A DNA stretch of 64,000 nucleotides from Cupriavidus gilardii (GTDB taxonomy: Bacteria > Pseudomonadota > Gammaproteobacteria > Burkholderiales > Burkholderiaceae): the NCBI RefSeq assembly GCF_008801915.1, contig NZ_VZOV01000010.1:1-64000 (forward strand). Reading direction: 5' to 3'. Of this stretch, positions 2,852-64,000 are shown piece after piece (the first letter of the stretch is position 1; every line of letters starts with the position of its first letter). A program made the translations under genes and the position numbers. Below the pieces are notes generated by a model, which had not been told where the DNA came from, searched no databases, and worked only from the letters and a program-made list of their open reading frames with translations.

Positions 2852-6537
<3,686 letters not shown>

Positions 6538-6541
<4 letters not shown>

Positions 6542-9500
6542 GCCAGCGGTCCTCCTGGATCGTTGCTCGATGGCTCGTTGGATGGTTCGTCCGTTCGCTC
6601 CCCCGGCGCTGCCGACCGCTGCGCGGGCGGGCGGTCATGCATGTATCGGGGCGCCGCGGCGACCGCGTCCGGCAACGCGGTCGACTGCCAGAACCCCTTG
6701 CGGCACAACCCCCGCGCATTGCACCAGGTGCAGGCCGCCGCGTCGCCGAACGCCGGCAGCGGCGCGCCTTCGCGCAGCCGCAGCGCGTCGTGCGTCAGCT
6801 GCTGCTGCAGCCAGGCCACCGCCTCGCCGAAGTCCGGCAGCGAAACCTCGCGGCGGCTGGCCGGCGAGGCGCTGCGGGGCTCGTTGCGGCCGTCCTCCAG
6901 CGCGATCCAGCTGCCCGCGCGCGCATCGGCGCGCAGCAGGCCGTAGAACGGCAACTGGCAATCCTCCTGCGCATCGCGCGCCTTGCGCTTCAGGCGCGCG
7001 GCGCTTTGCGTCTTGTAGTCGAGCACCGCATGGCGGCCGTCGCGATGGCGATCGAGCCGGTCGATGCGGCCATGCAGCCGGATCGGCTGGCCGTCGCGCA
7101 TCGGCAGCTCGGCACCGGCGTCGAGCTCTCCCGCCTGCCAGTACCAGCCCTCGCGCTCGCGCGCGGCCTGCCACGCGACGTATGACGGCAGTACCGCGAG
7201 CCAGCGGCGGTAGTAGCCGATCGCATTGCCGTCCTCGGCCATCACGCCGTCGAAGACCTCGCGCGAGACGGCCTGCAGATGCGCGACGCGCGCCGCATCG
7301 TCGCGCAGGTCCCGCGCCTGCACGTCGCGGTGGTAGCGCAGCAGGATCTGGTGCAGCAGTTCGCCGATATCGCGCTTCTCGAGATCGTCGCTGACGGCCT
7401 CCAGGCCGGCCAGGCCCAGCATGCGGCCGGCGAAGAACTGGTACGGGCAGCGGCGCAGCATGTTGTACGACTGCGCGGTCCAGCGCGCCGGGGCCAGTTC
7501 GGGCGCCGAGGGCGCGGGCATGCCGCCCGCCTGGGCGATCGCCTCGTGTACGGAAGGTGCGACGCTCGCCCCGATCGGCGCACCGGCCGCTTCGCAGTGC
7601 ACCGCCAATCGTTCCAGCCAGCCCGACACATGCTTCGGCTCGCCGCGGCCGCCGAAACGCTGCCAGGTCATTACCACGTCGTCGTTGTTCAGCAGCACCT
7701 CGGCCAGATCGCGCGCCTGCTGCGCAAAGCGCGCCTCGCGATCCTCGAGGCCGAGCTCGCGGCGCATCTGGTTGGAGAAGAACATCAGCTCGGCCGCGGT
7801 CGACGGCAGTTGCGCGTCGTCGCAGCCGACGATCACGACGCCGTCGAAGCGGCGCATGCGCGCGCCGTTCAGCGGCAGGATCGTGATGCGCGCGGCGGCG
7901 GGCTCGCTCGGCTCCTTGTAGGCCACCGCTTCGAGCAGCGCGGCGAGCATCGCGCGGAATTCGGCCAGCGTCAGCGTGGCGGTCGCGCTCGCCTCGTCGT
8001 CGGGCAGTTCGTCGAGCCGCGCCAGCGCGTCGAGCAGTTGCGCGCCGGCATCGTCGGCGGTCAGCGCGGCGCGCATCTCGAGCGCGTCGAGCGTGGCCTG
8101 CAGGCGCTGCAGCCAGAAGCCGACCGGCCGCGCGTCATTGCCGCGCGGCCAGGCTTGCGCCTCGCCGGCCAACTGCCGCAGCAGCGCGGCAGTGGCGCCC
8201 TGGGCCGCTGCCAGCACGGCCGCTTGCTCGTCGTCATGCGGGCCGGTATCGGACAGCGTGTCGGCGCTCCACTGCGCCTGCGGCGTCGCCGGAAAGCGCT
8301 GCAGCAGCCGGCGCCATCCGCCGGTGATGCCGTGGCGTCGCACCTGCCGCTCGAGCAGCGCGATCGCGGCGCCGCGCTGCGGCAGTTGCGGCAGGCAGAA
8401 CGGGCTCTTCAGCAGATCGAGCAGCGCCGCGGTATCGCCGTCGCCGACCACCAGGTCGAACCAGCGCATCAGCGCGGCGGCGGCGCGCGTGGTCGACAGC
8501 TTCCAGCCGGTCTCGTCGCGTACCGGCGCGCCGGCGCGCGCCAGCAGTGCGCGCGCCCGCCGCGCGACCACGCGGTCATGCGCGACCAGCGCCAGCTGCT
8601 TGCGGCCCTCGTTGAGCCAGCGCACCAGCTGGTCGGCCGCGGCGGCGGCCTCGTCCTCGAAGCGCGCGCTGCCGATCAGCCGCACGCGCGGACGATCGGC
8701 GGGCAGGCGCGGCGCCATCAGCGTCGGCAGCGAGGGCAGCGCGGTCGTGTCGGCGGGCAGACGGCACTCAGGCCATAGCCGGAGCAAGGTGCCATACCAG
8801 TTGCCGCCATCGCCATTGCCGGCGCGATCGAAGGGCAAACCGGTCGCCGCTTCCGCATCGCCGCGGCCTTGCCGATCGGCTTCGTTCGCCGCGCCCTCGT
8901 TGGTCTCGCCCTCGGCCGCCCCGCCGCTCCAGTCGTAGCCGATCTCCAGCACCGGCACCATGTCGGCGGCGGCGCGCAGGAAGGCGGCCTCGATCGGCGT
9001 CGGCGGAGTCGGCCCGAGCCAGACCACCGGGCCGGTCAGCTGCTGGGCCAGCGCCTGCAACGCACGCCGGCGCGCCGGCAGCGGATCGTCGGGTCCGGAC
9101 AGCGCCTGCCAGAACGCCAGCACGATGCGCGCCTCCTCGCCGAGGAAGCGCTCGGACAGATGCGCATAGGTCCGTTGCAACGCCTGCTGCAGCAGGTCGG
9201 CGCGATCGTCGGCAAGCACCGCGTCATCGTCGCGAATGGCGGCATCCTCGAGCCATCGCGCGGACAGCTCGTCGCAGACGGTCAGCACCGTCTGCGCCAG
9301 CCCCCAGGCCGCCGGTTCGGTCTGCGCGCCGAAGGCCTGCCGCAACCAGTCCTGGCCGCGGATCGCCTGCTGCACTGCGAGCAGGCGCGCGGCGTGGCTG
9401 CGTACCTTGCCGCCATGCAGCATCGCCGGCGGGAAATCGAGCAGCCAATGGCCCAGCGTCAGAATGCGCGGCAGCAGGCGCGGTGCGCCGGCCGCGCGCG

Positions 9501-9672
9501 CGGCGCGGTCCAGCGCCTGGCGCACGCCCGGAATCTGCGCCGCGGTCGGCACCACCAGATGCGCGGCGGACGCGCTCTGGCCGTGCTGTTCGCAGCGATC
9601 GAGGAAATACCAGGCCGCGGCCGCGGCATTGTCGAGAAAGTCGCGGCCGGGGCGGAAACGCAGCGTTGTCAT
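6538..9672 (-). CDS. addB: AddB-type nuclease/helicase-like subunit with Fe-S PD-(D/E)XK domain
   Basis: Second subunit of the AddAB end-processing nuclease. 1044 aa, ATG at 9672. The N-terminal half is an inactivated helicase-like fold. The C-terminal nuclease shows HAVLDYKTQSAARLK (Asp and the D-x-K pair). Four cysteines fit the iron-sulphur staple of this family: one in MLRRCPYQFFAGRMLG, and three in CTWCNARGLC close to the C-terminus (C-x2-C-x5-C). It is first of the pair in transcription order, and addA follows with an ATGA overlap. Similar two-gene arrangements are known in Burkholderiales. No promoter can be picked with confidence in the 137-bp gap upstream. Confidence 0.9.
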
Positions 9673-9809
9673 GTAGCGGGGTGAAATGGCGAAGGCTTGG
9701 CCGGCGGAATCCGTGGCAATCGGGGAGCATCGGCCCGCGCCCGGCGCGGGCGCATGCCGGTCCGGACGCCGCGCGGTCCCGCGCCGGCGTCACGCGATTG
9801 CGGCCGGGC

Positions 9810-10133
9810 TCAGGAGCGGTCGCCTTCGATGCGGGCGCGGATCTCGCGCGCGGTTTCGAGCAGTCCTTCGTAGCCGGAGCGCGCATGTTCGGGCAGGTCC
9901 GGATCGCCGACCAGCGTACCGAGCGTCTCGATGATGCTGTAGACGAGGCCCTTGGCCGCGCCAACCGCAATGCTGTTCTCCTCGACGGCGGTACTCAGAT
10001 GGGCCAGCGCGTCGCCAAGATGCTCGGCGCCGGCGGATTCGGCCCGGCCTTCGGCATCCGCCTCGGGCAACGGCTTGGAATCGCGCAGGGGGTCGCGGAT
10101 CGGGTCGCGGGTCGGATCGTCTTCGGGCGTCAT
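9810..10133 (-). CDS. Small protein of unknown function
   Basis: 107 aa, ATG at 10133. Not recognised. The first 45 residues are charged and low in complexity, with repeated acidic-Pro-Arg units (DDPTRDPIRDPLRDS). The remaining part is predicted mostly helical, with ALAHLSTAVEENSIAVGAAKGLVYSIIETLGTL split by no obvious motif. There is no signal peptide or clear membrane segment. It is co-directional with addB, 137 bp upstream of it, so it could be the first gene of the same transcript. Codon usage looks like the neighbours. Real coding is likely; function is unknown. Confidence 0.6.
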   Translation of the reverse strand: MTPEDDPTRDPIRDPLRDSKPLPEADAEGRAESAGAEHLGDALAHLSTAVEENSIAVGAAKGLVYSIIETLGTLVGDPDLPEHARSGYEGLLETAREIRARIEGDRS

Positions 10134-57074: not shown

Positions 57075-57563
57075 TTATGCCGCCGGCGGCACCACCGCCG
57101 TCACTTCGATCTCGACCCGCGCGCGCGGTTCGATCAGATCCGCGACCTCGACCGCGGTCATCGCCGGGAAATGGCGGCCGATGATCTCGCGGTAGTGCTT
57201 GCCGATCGCGGGATAGGCAGCGACGTATTCCGCCTTGTCCTTCACATACCAGGTCATCCGCGCGATATGCTCGGCGCGGGCCCCGCCCTGCTCCAGCACC
57301 GCGATCACATTGCGCAGCGCCTGGGCGGTCTGCTCCGCGAAGTCGTCGCTTTCGAACTCGCACTGGCCGTTCCAGCCGATCTGGCCGCCGACGAAGATCA
57401 GCCGGCTGCCGGCCTGGAATTCGGTCAGGATGCCGTTGGCATAGCCGCGCGGCGCGGCCCAGCCCGGGGGCTGCAGCACGGCCATCGGCTGGCCCCGCTG
57501 CGCAGCGGCGGCAGTGTTCGCGGTGGTCGAGGATTCGGCGGTGGGCGCCACGATATCGTTCAT
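57075..57563 (-). CDS. RidA/YjgF-family protein
   Basis: RidA-type proteins hydrolyse reactive enamines and imines to ketones and ammonia. 162 aa, longer than the usual 130 because of an Ala/Thr/Pro-rich N-terminus of about 25 residues. The core has RLIFVGGQIGWNG, TAQALRNVIAVLEQGGA and EPRARVEIEVTAVVP. Arg147 matches the catalytic arginine of RidA. It is 12 bp after the thioesterase, last gene of the aromatic-CoA operon. That position suggests a substrate among the operon's amino-cyclohexene intermediates, which is inference. Confidence 0.87.
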   Translation of the reverse strand: MNDIVAPTAESSTTANTAAAAQRGQPMAVLQPPGWAAPRGYANGILTEFQAGSRLIFVGGQIGWNGQCEFESDDFAEQTAQALRNVIAVLEQGGARAEHIARMTWYVKDKAEYVAAYPAIGKHYREIIGRHFPAMTAVEVADLIEPRARVEIEVTAVVPPAA

Positions 57564-57575
57564 AGCTTGGACTCG

Positions 57576-58079
57576 TCAGGAATTCGATGAAGGAGAGGGC
57601 GAGGCGGCCGAGGCGGCCGATGGGGCAGCAGGCGCTTCGTTGCCGATCTCGTCGACAAAGCGGGCCATCGCCTCGCGCACCGGCGCAGGAAACGGTCGCG
57701 GCGCCATGCGTGCGGTATCGACGCAGACCAGGCGCTGGCTGAACTCGACACGCAGGTCCGCCCGTCCGTCGTGCTGCGCGCCGAGAAAGCGCACCCGCAA
57801 CGTGCAGCTGGAGCTGCCCAGCCGCGTCACTGCCAGCTCGCGCGTCAGCACCTCGCCCATCCGGCTCGGCGCGACAAAGCGGCATTGCAGGTCCGCGGTC
57901 GGCACGCCGGCCCGGTCGGCGCCGTGCATGCGCTCGAACGGCCAGTCGAGCGCCTCGCGAAACCAGTCCTCGACCAGATCGTTCAGCATCTCGAAATAGC
58001 GGGGAAAGAACACGATGCCGGCGGCATCGCAGTCCTTGAAGCGCACCCGCACGGTGTTGCGGAAGCTCGGTGCCGTCAT
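57576..58079 (-). CDS. Acyl-CoA thioesterase (4-hydroxybenzoyl-CoA thioesterase fold)
   Basis: Hotdog-fold thioesterase, 167 aa. [23 protein letters not shown] carries the Asp of the 4HBT active site; the C-terminus is Ala/Pro/Ser-rich and probably loose. ATG 58079 overlaps the ligase stop by 4 bp. It may release free acid from dead-end aromatic CoA esters and so spare CoA. Homologues accompany 2-aminobenzoyl-CoA and benzoyl-CoA gene sets. Confidence 0.85.
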
Positions 58080-59746
58080 GACGCCGGTGTCCCGTTCTGC
58101 TCGGCCATCTGCCGCAGCCGGAAGCGCTGCAGCTTGCCGGTTTCGGTGCGCGGCAGCGCGTCGACGAAGTGGATGCGGCGGGGATACTTGTACGGGGCGA
58201 TCTGCCGCTTGACGTACTCCTGCAGCGTCACGCGCATCGCATCGTCGCCGTGAAAGCCCGGACGCAGCACCACATAGGCCGCCACCACCTGCCCGCGCCC
58301 ATCGTCGGGCGCGCCGACCACGCCGCACTCGGCCACCGCTTCGTGCTGCATCAGCGCGGCCTCGACTTCGGGGCCGGCGATGTTGTAGCCGGCCGAGACG
58401 ATCATGTCGTCCGAGCGGGCCTGATAGAAGTAGTAGCCGTCGGCGTCCATCACGAAGGTGTCGCCGGGCAGGTTCCAGCCGTCGCGCACATAGTTGGCCT
58501 GGCGCGGATCGTCCAGATAACGGCAGCCGGTCGGGCCCTGCACCGCCAGCTTGCCGGGCACGCCGGGCGGCAGCGTCTGCATGTTCTCGTCGACGATGCG
58601 CGCGACATAGCCGGGCACCACCTTGCCGATCGCGCCGGGCCGCACCTCGTCGCCGGCGCTCGAGATGAAGATATGCATCATCTCGGTGCCGCCGATGCCG
58701 TCGATCATCTCGATGCCGGTCGCGGCCTTCCAGCTCTGGCGCGTGGCGTCGGGCAACGCCTCCCCGGCCGACACGCTCTTCTTCAGGCTCGACAGGTCGT
58801 AGCGCTCGGCCGCCGCGGCCATCTGGCGATAGAAGGTCGGCGCGGTGAAGACGATGGTCGCGCGCGCGTCCTGGATCAGCGCCAGCAGCGTGTCCGGCGT
58901 CAGCTTCTCGGCGAGCACGGTCGACGCGCCGATTCGCAGCGGAAAGCACAGCAGCCCGCCGAGGCCGAAGGTGAAGGCCAGCGGCGGCGTGCCGCAGAAC
59001 ACGTCGTCGGCCGTGGGCCGCAGCACGTGCCGCGGGAACAGATCGCACATCGCCAGCACGTCGCGATGGAAATGCACGGTGCCCTTGGGCTGGCCGGTGG
59101 TGCCGCTGGTAAAGGCGATCAGGCAGATGTCGTCGCTCGCGGTATCGCAGGCGGCGAAATCGTCGGGCTTGCCCTGCAGCGCCGCCTCCAGCGAGCCCGG
59201 CCCGCTGCCGTTGAAGCACAGCACCTGCCGCATCGTCGGACAGTGGAACTCGCCGCCCTCGCGCATGTTCGCGTCCAGCTCCTCGCGCAGCCGCGCATCG
59301 CACAGCGCGGCGCCCACCTCGGCGCGATCGATCACCTGCTTCAGTTCGCGCGCGCGCAGCAGCGGCATCGTCGGCACCGCAATCAGGCCGGCCTTCAGCG
59401 TCGCCAGCAGGCTCGCGGCCATCATCAGGTTGTTGGGCCCGCGCAGCAGGATGCGGTTGCCGGGCACCAGTCCCATGTCCTCGGTCAGCACGCGCGCGAT
59501 GCGGTTGGTCAGCGCGGCCAGCTCGGCATAGCTGACGGTGCGAAAGCCACCGGCGCCGCCGGCATCGGGATAGCGGATCGCGATGCGTTCGCCGCGGCCC
59601 TCGCGCACATGGCGATCGACCAGTTCCACCGCGGCGTTGAGCCGCTCGGGATAGCGGGTGTCGTCGTTGAACAGGAACTGCGGCCAGGCCTCGCGCGGCG
59701 GCAGGCGGTCCTGGGCAAAGGTATCGAGATGGGCTGTGCTCGCCAT
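58076..59746 (-). CDS. Benzoate/2-aminobenzoate-CoA ligase family AMP-forming enzyme
   Basis: Activates an aromatic carboxylate to its CoA thioester with ATP. 556 aa. AMP-binding motif [21 protein letters not shown] near residue 210, [16 protein letters not shown] as the A5 region, [10 protein letters not shown] and [18 protein letters not shown] as hinge, and the acyl-adenylate lysine in [13 protein letters not shown]. Start ATG 59746. Neighbouring genes, above all the monooxygenase/reductase, favour 2-aminobenzoate (anthranilate) as substrate over benzoate. Confidence 0.88.
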
Positions 59747-59790
59747 GGCTGTCTCCTTGATGGGCGGCGCTCGTTCTGTGGAGCGCGCGG

Positions 59791-61011
59791 TCAGGACCGC
59801 GGTTGCCGCGCGGCCAGCGTTTCGCGCGCGACGATCAGCTTCTGCACTTCGGTGGCGCCCTCGTAGATGCGCAGCGAGCGGATCTCACGGTACAGGCTCT
59901 CGACCCGGCTGCCGATACGCACGCCAAGTCCGCCGAACAGCTGCACCGCGCGATCGATCACCATCTGGGCGTTCTCGGTGGCGGTCATCTTGGCCATCGC
60001 GGCCTCGCGGGTCGTGCGGACCGGAGCGCCGCCTTGGGTGCCGCCCTGACTGCGGCCCGCGCCGGTATCGCGGAGCCACGCCGCACGCCAGGTCAGCAGC
60101 GCGGCCGCGTCGAGCGCGGTCGCCATCTCGCCGAGCGCGGCCTGCGTCAGTTGCAGGTCGGCCAGCTTGCCGCCGAACATCGGGCGCGCGGTGGCCCGCC
60201 CGATCGCTTCATCGAGCGCCGCGCGGCCGAAGCCCAGCGCGGCCGCCGCGACCGAGGCGCGGAAGATGTCCAGCGTCATCATCGCCAGCTTGAATCCCTG
60301 CCCCGGCTCGCCCAGCCGCTGCGCGACGGGCACGCGGCAGCCGTCGAAGCGCAACGTCGCCAGCGGGTGCGGCGCCATCACGTCGATGCGCTCGGCGATC
60401 TGCAGCCCCGGCGTATCGGCATCGACGACGAAGGCCGTGATGCCGCGCGCGCCAGGCGCTTCGCCGGTGCGCGCGAACACGCAATAGAAGTCGGCAATGC
60501 CGCCGTTCGAGATCCAGGTCTTGGCGCCGTCGAGCACGTAGTGATCGCCGTCCAGCGTCGCGCTGCACTGCATCGCCGCGACATCGGAACCGGCCTCCGG
60601 CTCCGACAGCGCGAAGGCCGCGATCGCCTCGCCGCGCGCCACGCGCGGCAGATAGCGCTGGCGCAGCGTCTCGTCGCCCGCCAGCGTGATCGCGCCCGAG
60701 CCCAGTCCCTGCATCGCGAAGGCGAAGTCGGCCAATCCATCGTGGCGCGCCAGCGTCTCGCGCAGCAGGCACAGCGCGCGTGAATCGAGCTGGTCGAGCG
60801 CGCCGCCGTAGGCGCGCGGCACGCAGTAGCGCAGCCAGCCGGCCTCGCCGAGCTGGCGCACCAGCGCACGGCAGTCCGCGTCGACATCGGCGCCAGGGGC
60901 GTGCGGCTGCGCCGACAGCGAGCGCGCGCACCAGGCGTCGAGCTCACGCGCCAGCGTGCGATGCGCATCGTCAAAGAACGGCAGCGTCAGATCATCGTCC
61001 CAGGCGGGCAT
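59791..61011 (-). CDS. Acyl-CoA dehydrogenase family protein
   Basis: FAD enzyme that desaturates an acyl-CoA. 406 aa. [16 protein letters not shown] and [18 protein letters not shown] are flavin and substrate segments; the C-terminal [21 protein letters not shown] includes the glutamate usual for the catalytic base. ATG 61011. It is 15 bp after the enoyl-CoA hydratase gene. In this operon it may act on a ring or ring-opened CoA intermediate; the exact step is not known. Confidence 0.88.
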
Positions 61012-61026
61012 TTCGGTTCTCCTCGC

Positions 61027-61878
61027 TCAGTTTCCTTCGAACACCGGCTTTGCCTTGGCGACGAAGGCTTCGTAGGCGCGGCGGAAGTCGCCGGTCTGCA
61101 TGCAGATCGCCTGGGCCTGCGCCTCGGCCTCGATGGCCTCGTCCAGCCCCATGTTCCATTCCTGGTGCAGCAGCTTCTTGGTGACGCCATGCGCGAAGGT
61201 CGGGCCCGCGGCCAGTTGCGCGGCCAGCGCGGCGGCCTCGTCGCCCAGCCGCTCGGGCGCATGCAGCGCGTTGAAGAAGCCCCATTGCAGCCCCTCCTGC
61301 GCGCTCATCGCGCGGCCGGTATAGAGCAGCTCACTCGCGCGGCCCTGGCCGATCATCCGGGGCAGCAGCGTGCAGGCGCCCATGTCGGCGCCGGCCAGCC
61401 CCACGCGCACGAACAGGAACGCGGTGCGCGCCGACTCCGTCGCGAGCCGCATGTCGGAGGCCAGCGCGATCATCGCGCCCGCGCCGGCGCAGACGCCATC
61501 GACCGCCGCGATGATCGGCTGCGGACACGCGCGCATCGCCTTGACCAGGTCGCCGGTCATCCGCGTGAAGTCGAGCAGCTCCGGCATCGCCATCTTCGTC
61601 AGCGGGCCGATGATCTCGTGCACGTCGCCGCCCGAGCAGAAGTTGCCGCCGGCGCCCTGCACCACCACCGCCTTGATGTCGCTGGCGTAGACCAGCGCAC
61701 GGAACAGATCGCGCAGTTCGGCGTAGGCGTCGAAGGTCAGCGGATTCTTGCGCTCGGGGCGATTCAGCGTCACGGTGCCGACCTTGCCGTCCGCGGATAC
61801 CGACCACAGGAAGTGGCGCGGCGCGAAGTCCGCGAAGCCGCCCTTGTGGTGGCGCATGTCCAGTGCGATCTCGTTCAT
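61027..61878 (-). CDS. Enoyl-CoA hydratase/isomerase family protein
   Basis: Crotonase-fold enzyme, 283 aa. The oxyanion holes are [14 protein letters not shown] and [20 protein letters not shown], and the Asp-rich [21 protein letters not shown] segment follows where catalytic acidic residues lie. It has the longer N-terminus ([17 protein letters not shown]) of homologues in 2-aminobenzoyl-CoA clusters. It could hydrate or hydrolytically open the ring. ATG 61878, 60 bp after the SDR gene. Confidence 0.88.
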
Positions 61879-61938
61879 CTGCGTTCTCTCGTCGATGTGT
61901 CGATGTAGCGTTCGTTGTCCGTGCCCGCGCAGGTCTGC

Positions 61939-62745
61939 TCAGCCCGCCATCACCTCGCCGCCCGCCACCGCGATCGCCTGGCCGGTGATCGCGCTGGCCG
62001 ACGGCCGGCACAGCCAGGCGACCGCGTCGGCCACTTCGTCCGGATCCACCAGCCGGCGCTGCGGGTTGCGGCCGGCCAGTTCCGCCCGCGCCTGCGCTTC
62101 GGTGCGGCCCGTCTTGCCGACGATATTGGCGACCGCCTCGCGCACGATGTCGGTATCGGTATAGCCCGGGCACACCGCATTGACGGTGATGCCGCTGCGC
62201 GCCAGCTCCAGCGCCAGCGCGCGCGTCAGGCCGAGCACGCCATGCTTGGCCGCGCAGTAGGCCGTCACATAGGCATAGCCGGTCAGCGCGGCGGTGCTCG
62301 CGACATTGACCACGCGGCCCCAGCCCGCTTCGCGCATCGCCGGCAGCGCGGCCTGCGTGCACAGGAAGGTGCCGGTCAGATTCACGTCCAGCATGCGGCG
62401 CCACAGCGCCAGGTCGGTCTTCGCGAACGGCGCGCTGTGCGCCTGGCCGGCGTTGTTGACCAGCACGGCGATCGGTCCCAGCGCCTGCGCCGCGGCGTCG
62501 AACGCGCGCGCCACGCTGTCGGCGTCGCCGACATCCGCCTGCACTCGATGCAGCCGCGCACCGGGATGGTCCTGCCCGAGCCGCTCCACGGCGCGCGCCA
62601 GTGCGTCGCCGTCGCGGCCCAGCAGCGTCACGCCGGCGCCCTCGGCCAGCAGGCGGCCGGCGATGGCGGCCCCAATGCCGCGCGCCCCGCCCGTGACCAG
62701 CGCGTGGCGACCCTGCAGCGGCAACGACGAACGATCGGCGCTCAT
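61939..62745 (-). CDS. Short-chain dehydrogenase/reductase
   Basis: NAD(P)-dependent oxidoreductase of the classical SDR type. 268 aa. Cofactor loop [14 protein letters not shown] at residues about 17-30, [10 protein letters not shown], catalytic Ser in [10 protein letters not shown] and Tyr/Lys in [11 protein letters not shown] 62745 overlaps the stop of the upstream monooxygenase/reductase by 4 bp, so they are coupled. Likely acts on a hydroxy- or oxo-cyclohexene carboxyl-CoA, by context. Confidence 0.9.
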
Positions 62746-64000
62746 CGTGCCCCCGCCAGCGCCGCGGCGCGCTCGAGGTTGGTCTCCAGCTGCCGCTTGC
62801 CGGCCTGGTATTGCACCGGCCAGTCGACCGGCCGATAGCCCAGCTGCGCGGCCTGATGCAGCGTCCAGGCCGGATCGGCCAGATGCGGCCGCGCGATCGC
62901 GCACAGGTCGGCGCGGCCCGCGGCGATGATGCTGTCGACGTGATCGGCTTCGGAAATCGCCCCGACGGCGATCGTCGGAATGCCCGCCTCGTTGCGGATG
63001 CGGTCGGCGAACGGCGTCTGGTACATGCGGCCATAGACCGGCGTTTGTTCGGGGCTGACCTGCCCCGACGAGCAGTCGATCAGGTCCGCGCCGGCCGCCT
63101 TGAAGGCGCGTGCGATCTCGACCGCGTCGTCGGGCGTGATGCCGCCCTCGACCCAGTCGTGCGCCGAAATGCGGACCGACATCGGCCGCTGCGACGGCCA
63201 TACCTCGCGCACCGCGGCGAACACCTCGAGGGGATAGCGCAGCCGGTTGGCCAGCGAGCCGCCGTACTCGTCATCACGGCGGTTGGTCAGCGGCGAAATG
63301 AACGACGACAACAGGTAGCCGTGCGCGCAATGCAGCTCCAGCCAATCGAAGCCGGCCTCGGCAGCGCGCCGCGCCGCGGCGGCGAAATCGTCGCGCACGC
63401 GATCCATGTCCTCGCGCGTCATCGCGCGCGGCACCTGCGAGATGCCGGGCAGATACGGCAGCGGCGAGGCCGAGATCAGCGGCCAGTTACCTTCGGGCAG
63501 CGGATGGTCCATCGCCTGCCAGCCCAGCTGCGTCGAGCCCTTGCGGCCGGCATGGCCGAGCTGCATGCCGATGCGCGCGCCGCTGGACAGCCCCGTGCCC
63601 GCATGGACGAAATCGACGATGCGGCGCCAGGCGTCGCGTTGCACGTCGTTCCACAAACCCGGGCATCCCGGCGTGATGCGCGCGTCCGGCGACACGCAGG
63701 TCATCTCGGCCATCACCAGGCCCGCGCCGCCCTGGGCACGCGCGCCCAGATGGACCAGATGGAAGTCGCCGGGCACGCCGTCGACGCAGCAGTACATCGC
63801 CATCGGCGACACCACCACGCGGTTCTTCAGCGTCAGGCCGCGCACGCGGTAAGGCGTGAACATCGGCGGCAAGGCGCCGTCGTGCGCGCGCAGGCTTTCC
63901 TCGGGCACGCCGGCCTGGCGCGCCAGCCAGCGCTCGTAATCCTCGACATAGGTACGATCGCGCAGCCGCAGGTTCTCGTGCGAGATCCGCTGCGAGCGCG
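62742..64000 (-). CDS. 2-aminobenzoyl-CoA monooxygenase/reductase-like protein (C-terminal part; 5' end off right edge)
   Basis: About 420 C-terminal residues are visible; the reading frame stays open to base 64000 (ending edge segment [20 protein letters not shown]). From residue [20 protein letters not shown] on it is an old-yellow-enzyme FMN reductase domain, with [30 protein letters not shown] and [20 protein letters not shown]. The part before it is the end of an FAD aromatic hydroxylase, as in the fused 2-aminobenzoyl-CoA or salicylyl-CoA hydroxylases. The GTG near 63908 is internal, not a start. In Azoarcus evansii the fused enzyme hydroxylates and reduces 2-aminobenzoyl-CoA. Confidence 0.83.

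Follow-up and report, generated by a model that had tools for sequence, protein, structure and literature searches.

The window considered here is a 64,000-nucleotide stretch of Cupriavidus gilardii DNA (RefSeq assembly GCF_008801915.1, contig NZ_VZOV01000010.1, positions 1 to 64,000, forward strand). Its last part, positions 57075-64000, is occupied by seven packed minus-strand genes, neighbours overlapping by 4 bases or leaving gaps of 12-60 bases. One of them encodes a Rid-family protein, for which the name AbmRid was coined in the present analysis, and another encodes a fused 2-aminobenzoyl-CoA monooxygenase/reductase (ACMR; CoA, coenzyme A). AbmRid is examined here as the candidate for nitrogen removal in the aerobic breakdown of anthranilate (2-aminobenzoate). 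Published sources are cited by their PMC numbers. An earlier sequence-only reading of the window had listed a ligase, ACMR, a short-chain dehydrogenase/reductase (SDR), a hydratase, a dehydrogenase, a thioesterase and a Rid protein, and all seven genes were recovered on the minus strand:

57075..57563, minus strand: AbmRid, Rid-family protein of 162 amino acids (PF01042, E 6e-21; alignments; Rid fold in a structure model with a mean confidence, pLDDT, of 90.9)
57576..58079, minus strand: thioesterase of the 4HBT family (PF13279)
58076..59746, minus strand: AMP-forming CoA ligase of the benzoate/2-aminobenzoate type (PF00501; TIGR02262 at 359 bits, slightly below the cut-off of 375)
59791..61011, minus strand: acyl-CoA dehydrogenase (PF00441, PF02770, PF02771)
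61027..61878, minus strand: enoyl-CoA hydratase/crotonase-family protein (NCBIfam PRK08258 at 500 bits, above the cut-off of 330)
61939..62745, minus strand: SDR (PF00106, PF13561), its start taken from the translation
62742..64000, minus strand: C-terminal (Old Yellow Enzyme) part of ACMR (PF00724, NCBIfam PRK08255)

The 4-base overlaps are at the ACMR/SDR and the ligase/thioesterase junctions, and 12 bases separate the thioesterase gene from that of AbmRid. The window end cuts the ACMR gene, leaving inside the reductase portion and the end of the monooxygenase portion; the remainder was read beyond the window, and the full gene spans contig positions 62742-65111 (L011:7743-10112) and encodes 789 amino acids. 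PRK08255 matched the part inside the window at 718 bits, with a cut-off of 1078 that is set for the full-length protein. This match, together with relatives, is the reason for reading ACMR as an enzyme of 2-aminobenzoyl-CoA. As expected of an abm cluster, an aromatic CoA ligase shares the operon with ACMR, three genes lying between the two; the family that this ligase matched, TIGR02262, is that of benzoate-CoA ligases. Some 100 bases before the start of the full ACMR gene there is a promoter-like match, by consensus only (L011:10237-10209). Met27 of AbmRid is a possible alternative start, and most matches from the same genus start at residues 18-28.

AbmRid belongs to the Rid (YjgF/YER057c/UK114) superfamily, with a PF01042 match of 75 bits against a cut-off of 27.3. 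The 50 structural matches listed by Foldseek for the model are all Rid-family by title, with template-modelling (TM) scores of 0.61-0.70 by query length and identities of 21-33%. In the numbering of PMC4433059, the residues of interest are Arg105, Glu120 and Tyr17. Solved Rid proteins carry the catalytic arginine within a PAR motif. Around the arginine column AbmRid reads FPAMTAVEVADLIEPRARVEIE, and its FPAM-T aligns without gaps to FPAR-S or PAR-S of solved Rid proteins, so that the Arg105 column is held by Met135. In a set of 132 unique relatives with scores of 130 bits or more, not all of them neighbours of ACMR, this column holds Met in 127, Leu in three, Thr in one, Ser in one and Arg in none. 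The Glu120 column is Glu151 in AbmRid and Glu in every one of the 132 relatives; the Tyr17 column is Tyr41, with Tyr in 77 relatives, Phe in 53 and a gap in two. Which Glu and Tyr are Glu120 and Tyr17 was counted on the E. coli sequence, and this assignment is consistent with the alignments made. The proposal of the sequence-only reading that Arg147 is the catalytic arginine is rejected by alignment, conservation and structure model alike: position 147 is Arg in 57 of the 132 relatives and thus not conserved, and it falls in the loop between the strand 134-139, which contains residue 135, and the last strand, which contains residue 151. Two haloarchaeal AbmRid proteins (116 and 121 bits, below the 130-bit set) read PAM and PAV, and of seven Rid paralogues aligned from the genome of the window, four carry Arg at the Arg105 column (PAR in three, PPR in one).

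AbmRid is co-inherited with ACMR. In a phylum-level sample of 398 genomes (profile thresholds of E up to 1e-150 for ACMR and up to 1e-30 for AbmRid), ACMR was detected in 71 genomes and AbmRid in 69, all of them within the 71, and AbmRid was found in none of the 327 genomes lacking ACMR (Fisher p about 1e-75, relatedness ignored). The two genes lie at most 15 kb apart on one contig in 61 of the 69 genomes, with a median gap of 5.2 kb; in the remaining eight they are on different contigs (five) or 38 kb to 1.8 Mb apart (three). A class-level sample of 369 genomes gave AbmRid in 18/18 ACMR genomes vs 2/351 others (G354 and G390). In this sample, 33 of the 51 above-threshold genomes had been set aside, their matches being read as short or as covering the reductase part only, and G119 was kept on a match to the first 230 residues at a contig edge. 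Within the genus, ACMR occurs in 39 of 40 genomes and AbmRid in 34 of 35 (G001-G035), G026 having neither. These samples overlap.

A wider scan of genome contigs gave at least 594 relatives, of which the best 80 are the named loci; most of them are actinobacterial, the query alignment having started from a Rhodococcus sequence. AbmRid lies in the stretch read in 60 of the 80, five loci are of a gentisate type described below and 15 show neither. Among the latter, AbmRid sits at or barely past the flank edge in L130 and L178, and elsewhere in the genome in nine (L121, L127, L132, L137, L142, L144, L150, L173 and L175); in the whole-genome search of locus genomes, AbmRid matches scored at least 159 bits and other Rid matches at most 90 bits. 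A chance neighbourhood was rejected, since ten PF01042 matches in the 5.8-Mb genome of the window lead to about 0.03-0.04 expected per 20 kb. A ligase accompanies AbmRid in 54 of the 60 loci. Four types of cluster could be distinguished, with gene content that varies among individual clusters within each type:

Type I (Proteobacteria, Deinococcus, Solirubrobacter): ACMR, SDR, hydratase, dehydrogenase, ligase, often thioesterase, AbmRid
Type II (Arthrobacter, Rhodococcus, some other actinobacteria): AbmRid, FAH hydrolase, cupin, TesB-like thioesterase, ligase, ACMR
Type III (Streptomyces): hydratase, ACMR, ligase, dehydrogenase, AbmRid
Type IV (two haloarchaeal plasmids): AbmRid, ACMR, dehydrogenase, MaoC, SDR, hydratase; trpB close by on both plasmids and kynureninase close by on one

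No hydratase or dehydrogenase was detected in the AbmRid-bearing clusters of the Arthrobacter/Rhodococcus type. AbmRid, besides ACMR, is seen in all four types, which suggests that its step directly follows that of ACMR. A kynureninase gene about 7-11 kb from ACMR in two relatives is an indirect pointer to anthranilate as the substrate, and so is a ligase of Arthrobacter Rue61a for which activity on anthranilate has been reported.

Some ACMR homologues instead adjoin a gentisate 1,2-dioxygenase-like cupin and an FAH hydrolase (the cupin of L101 matches TIGR02272 at 312 bits, below the cut-off of 442), and we infer from gene context that these gentisate-type loci use salicylate. Such loci provide a natural control. 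AbmRid was found in the stretch read of none of the 18 gentisate-type ACMR loci (L101, L136, L147, L157, L161, L172, L216-L226 and L228), in which presumably no amino group needs removal. Both ACMR genomes of the phylum sample that lack AbmRid, G724 and G775, carry gentisate-type loci; whole-genome search also found no AbmRid in the genomes of L136, L157 and L172. Two Streptomyces genomes with a gentisate-type ACMR and AbmRid, G430 and G432, each hold a second ACMR, at a distance from AbmRid of about 4 kb in one and 5 kb in the other. The survey that the sequence-only reading had called for, namely whether the Rid protein stays in the cluster, bears out its central idea: the Rid gene accompanies ACMR in different phyla and does not occur where an ACMR homologue is part of a gentisate-type cluster. 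The informative point is that, across 107 ACMR rows (81 labelled Rid, 7 gentisate, 19 neither; four genes entered twice), no row has both labels. On the ACMR tree the two states require four changes, at least three of them on well-supported branches, and a sign test on three independent pairs gives p 0.25; the tree holds only loci labelled Rid or gentisate, so that the opposition within it arises by construction. Rows shorter than 640 amino acids were omitted from the set and the tree, and four second copies and the unlabelled rows from the tree as well; trees were made with FastTree and have some long branches. Shared ancestry alone is weakened as the cause of the Rid/gentisate pattern.

Aerobic CoA-dependent anthranilate breakdown has been described up to an enamine, and no gene assigned to the deamination was found in the accessible literature; nor, among the mostly open-access papers searched, was any found that links 2-aminobenzoyl-CoA with RidA or describes a role for a Rid protein here. 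The ben/cat/box regulons have been discussed with respect to their RidA-family genes (PMC6449761), and Rid candidates have been proposed for a muconate step (PMC7118221). Physiological data come from Arthrobacter Rue61a, in which anthranilate-CoA ligase activity was reported for two cloned genes, one plasmid-borne, and which grows on anthranilate and not on salicylate, gentisate or 5-hydroxyanthranilate (PMC3534580). CoA esters of C7H7NO3 and C7H8O4 were found only in its anthranilate-grown cells, the latter being, as the authors suggested, cyclohexanedione-carboxyl-CoA (PMC3534580). The 113-kb plasmid of this strain, recorded as pAL1 and matched by size and content to pARUE113 of PMC3534580, carries a cluster with an AbmRid reading PAM, and by position the plasmid-borne active ligase gene is the ligase of this cluster. 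The main text of that paper has no mention of "deaminase", "L-PSP" or "YjgF". The metabolites fit deamination preceding ring opening.

Gene content, co-inheritance, absence from gentisate-type loci, residue pattern and Rid fold, all computed directly, make it likely that AbmRid is the dedicated deamination step of the aerobic CoA-bound anthranilate pathway. We infer its substrate, its reaction, the role of Met135 and the ring-opening partners as follows. The ligase would form 2-aminobenzoyl-CoA and ACMR would convert it to 2-amino-5-oxocyclohex-1-ene-1-carboxyl-CoA, both steps being known from the literature. AbmRid would then most likely hydrolyse the enamine/imine carbon, yielding ammonia and 2,5-dioxocyclohexane-1-carboxyl-CoA (acid C7H8O4), and may in this way be the source of the C7H8O4-CoA ester reported in Rue61a. 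The product, a beta-keto thioester, would be ready for a non-homologous partner to open the ring by hydrolysis; in the window this might be the crotonase-family protein, and in Arthrobacter/Rhodococcus-type clusters it might be the FAH-family hydrolase. Met could replace the carboxylate-binding arginine because the carboxyl group of the substrate is a thioester and no free carboxylate is present, Glu151 and Tyr/Phe41 being kept, presumably, to position water. In a broader form, it is fairly likely that bacteria and haloarchaea share a distinct Rid subfamily, with PAM for PAR, for which the hydrolysis of CoA-thioester enamines is an obligate pathway step. The idea of the sequence-only reading that the Rid protein hydrolyses the ACMR enamine before ring opening is well supported by the genomic survey, and the Rue61a metabolites fit it; the canonical arginine on which it had leaned is missing.

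Several observations weigh against this assignment, and the residue pattern is the first of them. Rid deaminases are considered to need Arg105 (PMC5619798, PMC4433059), and AbmRid lacks it. Subfamilies without the arginine are known as Rid4-Rid7, with Trp in Rid4/7 and variable residues in Rid5/6, and a Rid7 lacking it showed no activity towards an imine derived from leucine (PMC4433059). The rule of the field therefore predicts no AbmRid activity on amino-acid imines, and the deamination proposal accordingly needs another mode of substrate binding. On the side of physiology, the enamine is unstable below pH 5 (PMC3534580), so that the C7H8O4 ester, whose identity is the authors' suggestion (PMC3534580), could be an extraction product and spontaneous deamination is possible. 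Plasmid-deficient Rue61a keeps its growth on anthranilate (PMC3534580), and no growth on anthranilate was seen for Cupriavidus metallidurans CH34, a strain with annotated abm genes (PMC8879955). An AbmRid activity, ligand-bound structure or mutant was not found in the literature searched. As for ACMR genomes without a gentisate context, those of L139, L152, L162 and L171, which are drafts or metagenome-assembled genomes, gave no Rid match above 90 bits, and the plasmid record L100, searched as a plasmid only, lacks AbmRid. AbmRid stands apart from ACMR in the genome of L144 and in G521 and G549, and AbmRid-like genes occur without a detected adjoining ACMR at L182, L183, L186, L188, L230 and L231. 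Nor is the opposition to gentisate-type loci a clean rule: G431, the genome of L157, holds a further ACMR (L202) with a ligase nearby and with neither gentisate dioxygenase nor AbmRid, and L231 pairs AbmRid with a gentisate-dioxygenase-like gene in the absence of ACMR.

Other explanations can be set against these data. The crotonase-family protein might hydrate the beta-amino-enoyl thioester and be the deaminase itself, leaving the Rid protein to clear leaked imine. Crotonases hydrate enoyl-CoAs, and a hydratase gene does lie within the operon of the window, but the AbmRid-bearing clusters of the Arthrobacter/Rhodococcus type show none, and a hydratase of this kind is found in the stretch read of just 36 of the 60 AbmRid loci; this explanation is very unlikely. 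It is very unlikely that AbmRid serves damage control, with an enamine that hydrolyses by itself and a Rid protein that removes toxic imine or shields an enzyme in a step that is not needed. Canonical RidA does work in this manner (PMC4433059) and the enamine is acid-labile (PMC3534580); nevertheless, AbmRid in 69 of 71 ACMR genomes and its absence from gentisate-type loci suit a needed step better, and a beta-enamino thioester should, on chemical grounds, be fairly stable at neutral pH. It is highly improbable that AbmRid acts on another intermediate or by another chemistry, such as hydrolytic ring opening or tautomerisation, with the loss of arginine (0/132) marking the new reaction: chorismatase offers a family precedent (PMC4433059), but the Glu120 and Tyr17 columns are preserved, and the lack of AbmRid in clusters interpreted as nitrogen-free directs attention to the amino group.

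Schuehle et al. 2001 is reportedly the primary work on the Azoarcus evansii abm clusters of aerobic 2-aminobenzoate metabolism. In those clusters, as here, a CoA ligase occurs with the fused monooxygenase/reductase, and later steps are ascribed to beta-oxidation enzymes (PMC4539516). The available pathway account in PMC4539516 names no deaminase. A Rid-family enamine deaminase in an aromatic-amine pathway is also represented by AmnE, the 2-aminomuconate deaminase of Pseudomonas sp. AP-3; the substrate of AmnE is a free dicarboxylate after ring cleavage (PMC6742747), whereas the proposed substrate of AbmRid is a CoA thioester with the ring still intact. For AmnE a conserved cleft Arg117 is listed (PMC6742747), assumed here to be the Arg105 column, where AbmRid has Met. 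RutC, the 3-aminoacrylate deaminase of the rut operon, is likewise a pathway-specific Rid protein in a catabolic operon, but it acts on 3-aminoacrylate and belongs to another operon (PMC8113886). RidA, TdcF and UK114 share with AbmRid the fold and the Tyr17 and Glu120 columns; AbmRid differs in lacking Arg105 and in having a near-obligate genomic partner. Gentisate-type ACMR clusters have a close ACMR homologue, often a thioesterase and in some cases a ligase, but carry the gentisate-dioxygenase-like cupin and the FAH hydrolase in place of AbmRid.

Some further observations concern the neighbourhoods of these genes. Outside the window, an acyl-CoA synthetase gene (L011:10283-12175, contig 65282-67174) precedes ACMR by about 170 bases and has the same orientation; by appearance it is of the acetate/propionate type, and it is similar to the operon ligase. 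In the haloarchaeal plasmids L096 and L097, a luciferase-like (LLM) flavoprotein gene stands directly upstream of ACMR, with MaoC and AbmRid near; trpB is present in both and kynureninase in L096. At G023:C9:1819520-1821879, ACMR is encoded as two adjoining frames (query residues 1-266 and 265-786), either a frameshift or a split enzyme. In L182 (G390, a genome without detected ACMR), AbmRid directly follows an SDR-like gene (Rid open reading frame 9676-10065). At L231:7286-9929 (G648), FAH and dehydrogenase-like genes accompany the pair mentioned above. L230:9354-9776 (G477) is a weaker lone paralogue reading PPS instead of PAM, and extra copies with comparably weak scores are found in ten genomes of a single family, one of them G477. 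In L186 (G273, Rid open reading frame 9389-9868), an AbmRid paralogue lies beside an AFOR-family oxidoreductase, a benzoate-CoA-ligase-like gene and PaaK, with a 2-oxoacid:acceptor oxidoreductase and benzoyl-CoA reductase subunits A and D also among the neighbours; L188 (G152, Rid open reading frame 5954-6490) resembles it by eye, the 2-oxoacid oxidoreductase being the one gene tested. Such paralogues may have a role in the anaerobic reduction of aminobenzoyl-CoA.

Tryptophan, indole, quinolones and nitrobenzoates are all sources of anthranilate. If the assignment is true, the deamination step of its aerobic catabolism would gain a gene, and AbmRid would mark anthranilate clusters as opposed to salicylate/gentisate clusters, both of which are now named "salicylyl-CoA 5-hydroxylase". 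The branch beside benzoyl-CoA reductase genes may act likewise after anaerobic aminobenzoyl-CoA reduction. The rule that makes Arg105 a requirement for Rid deaminases would be broken; the challenge to Arg105-based prediction of deaminases matters for the annotation of a very common family of small proteins. With AbmRid, a near-obligate and widespread Rid protein offers a concrete and easily tested gene for the nitrogen-removal step.

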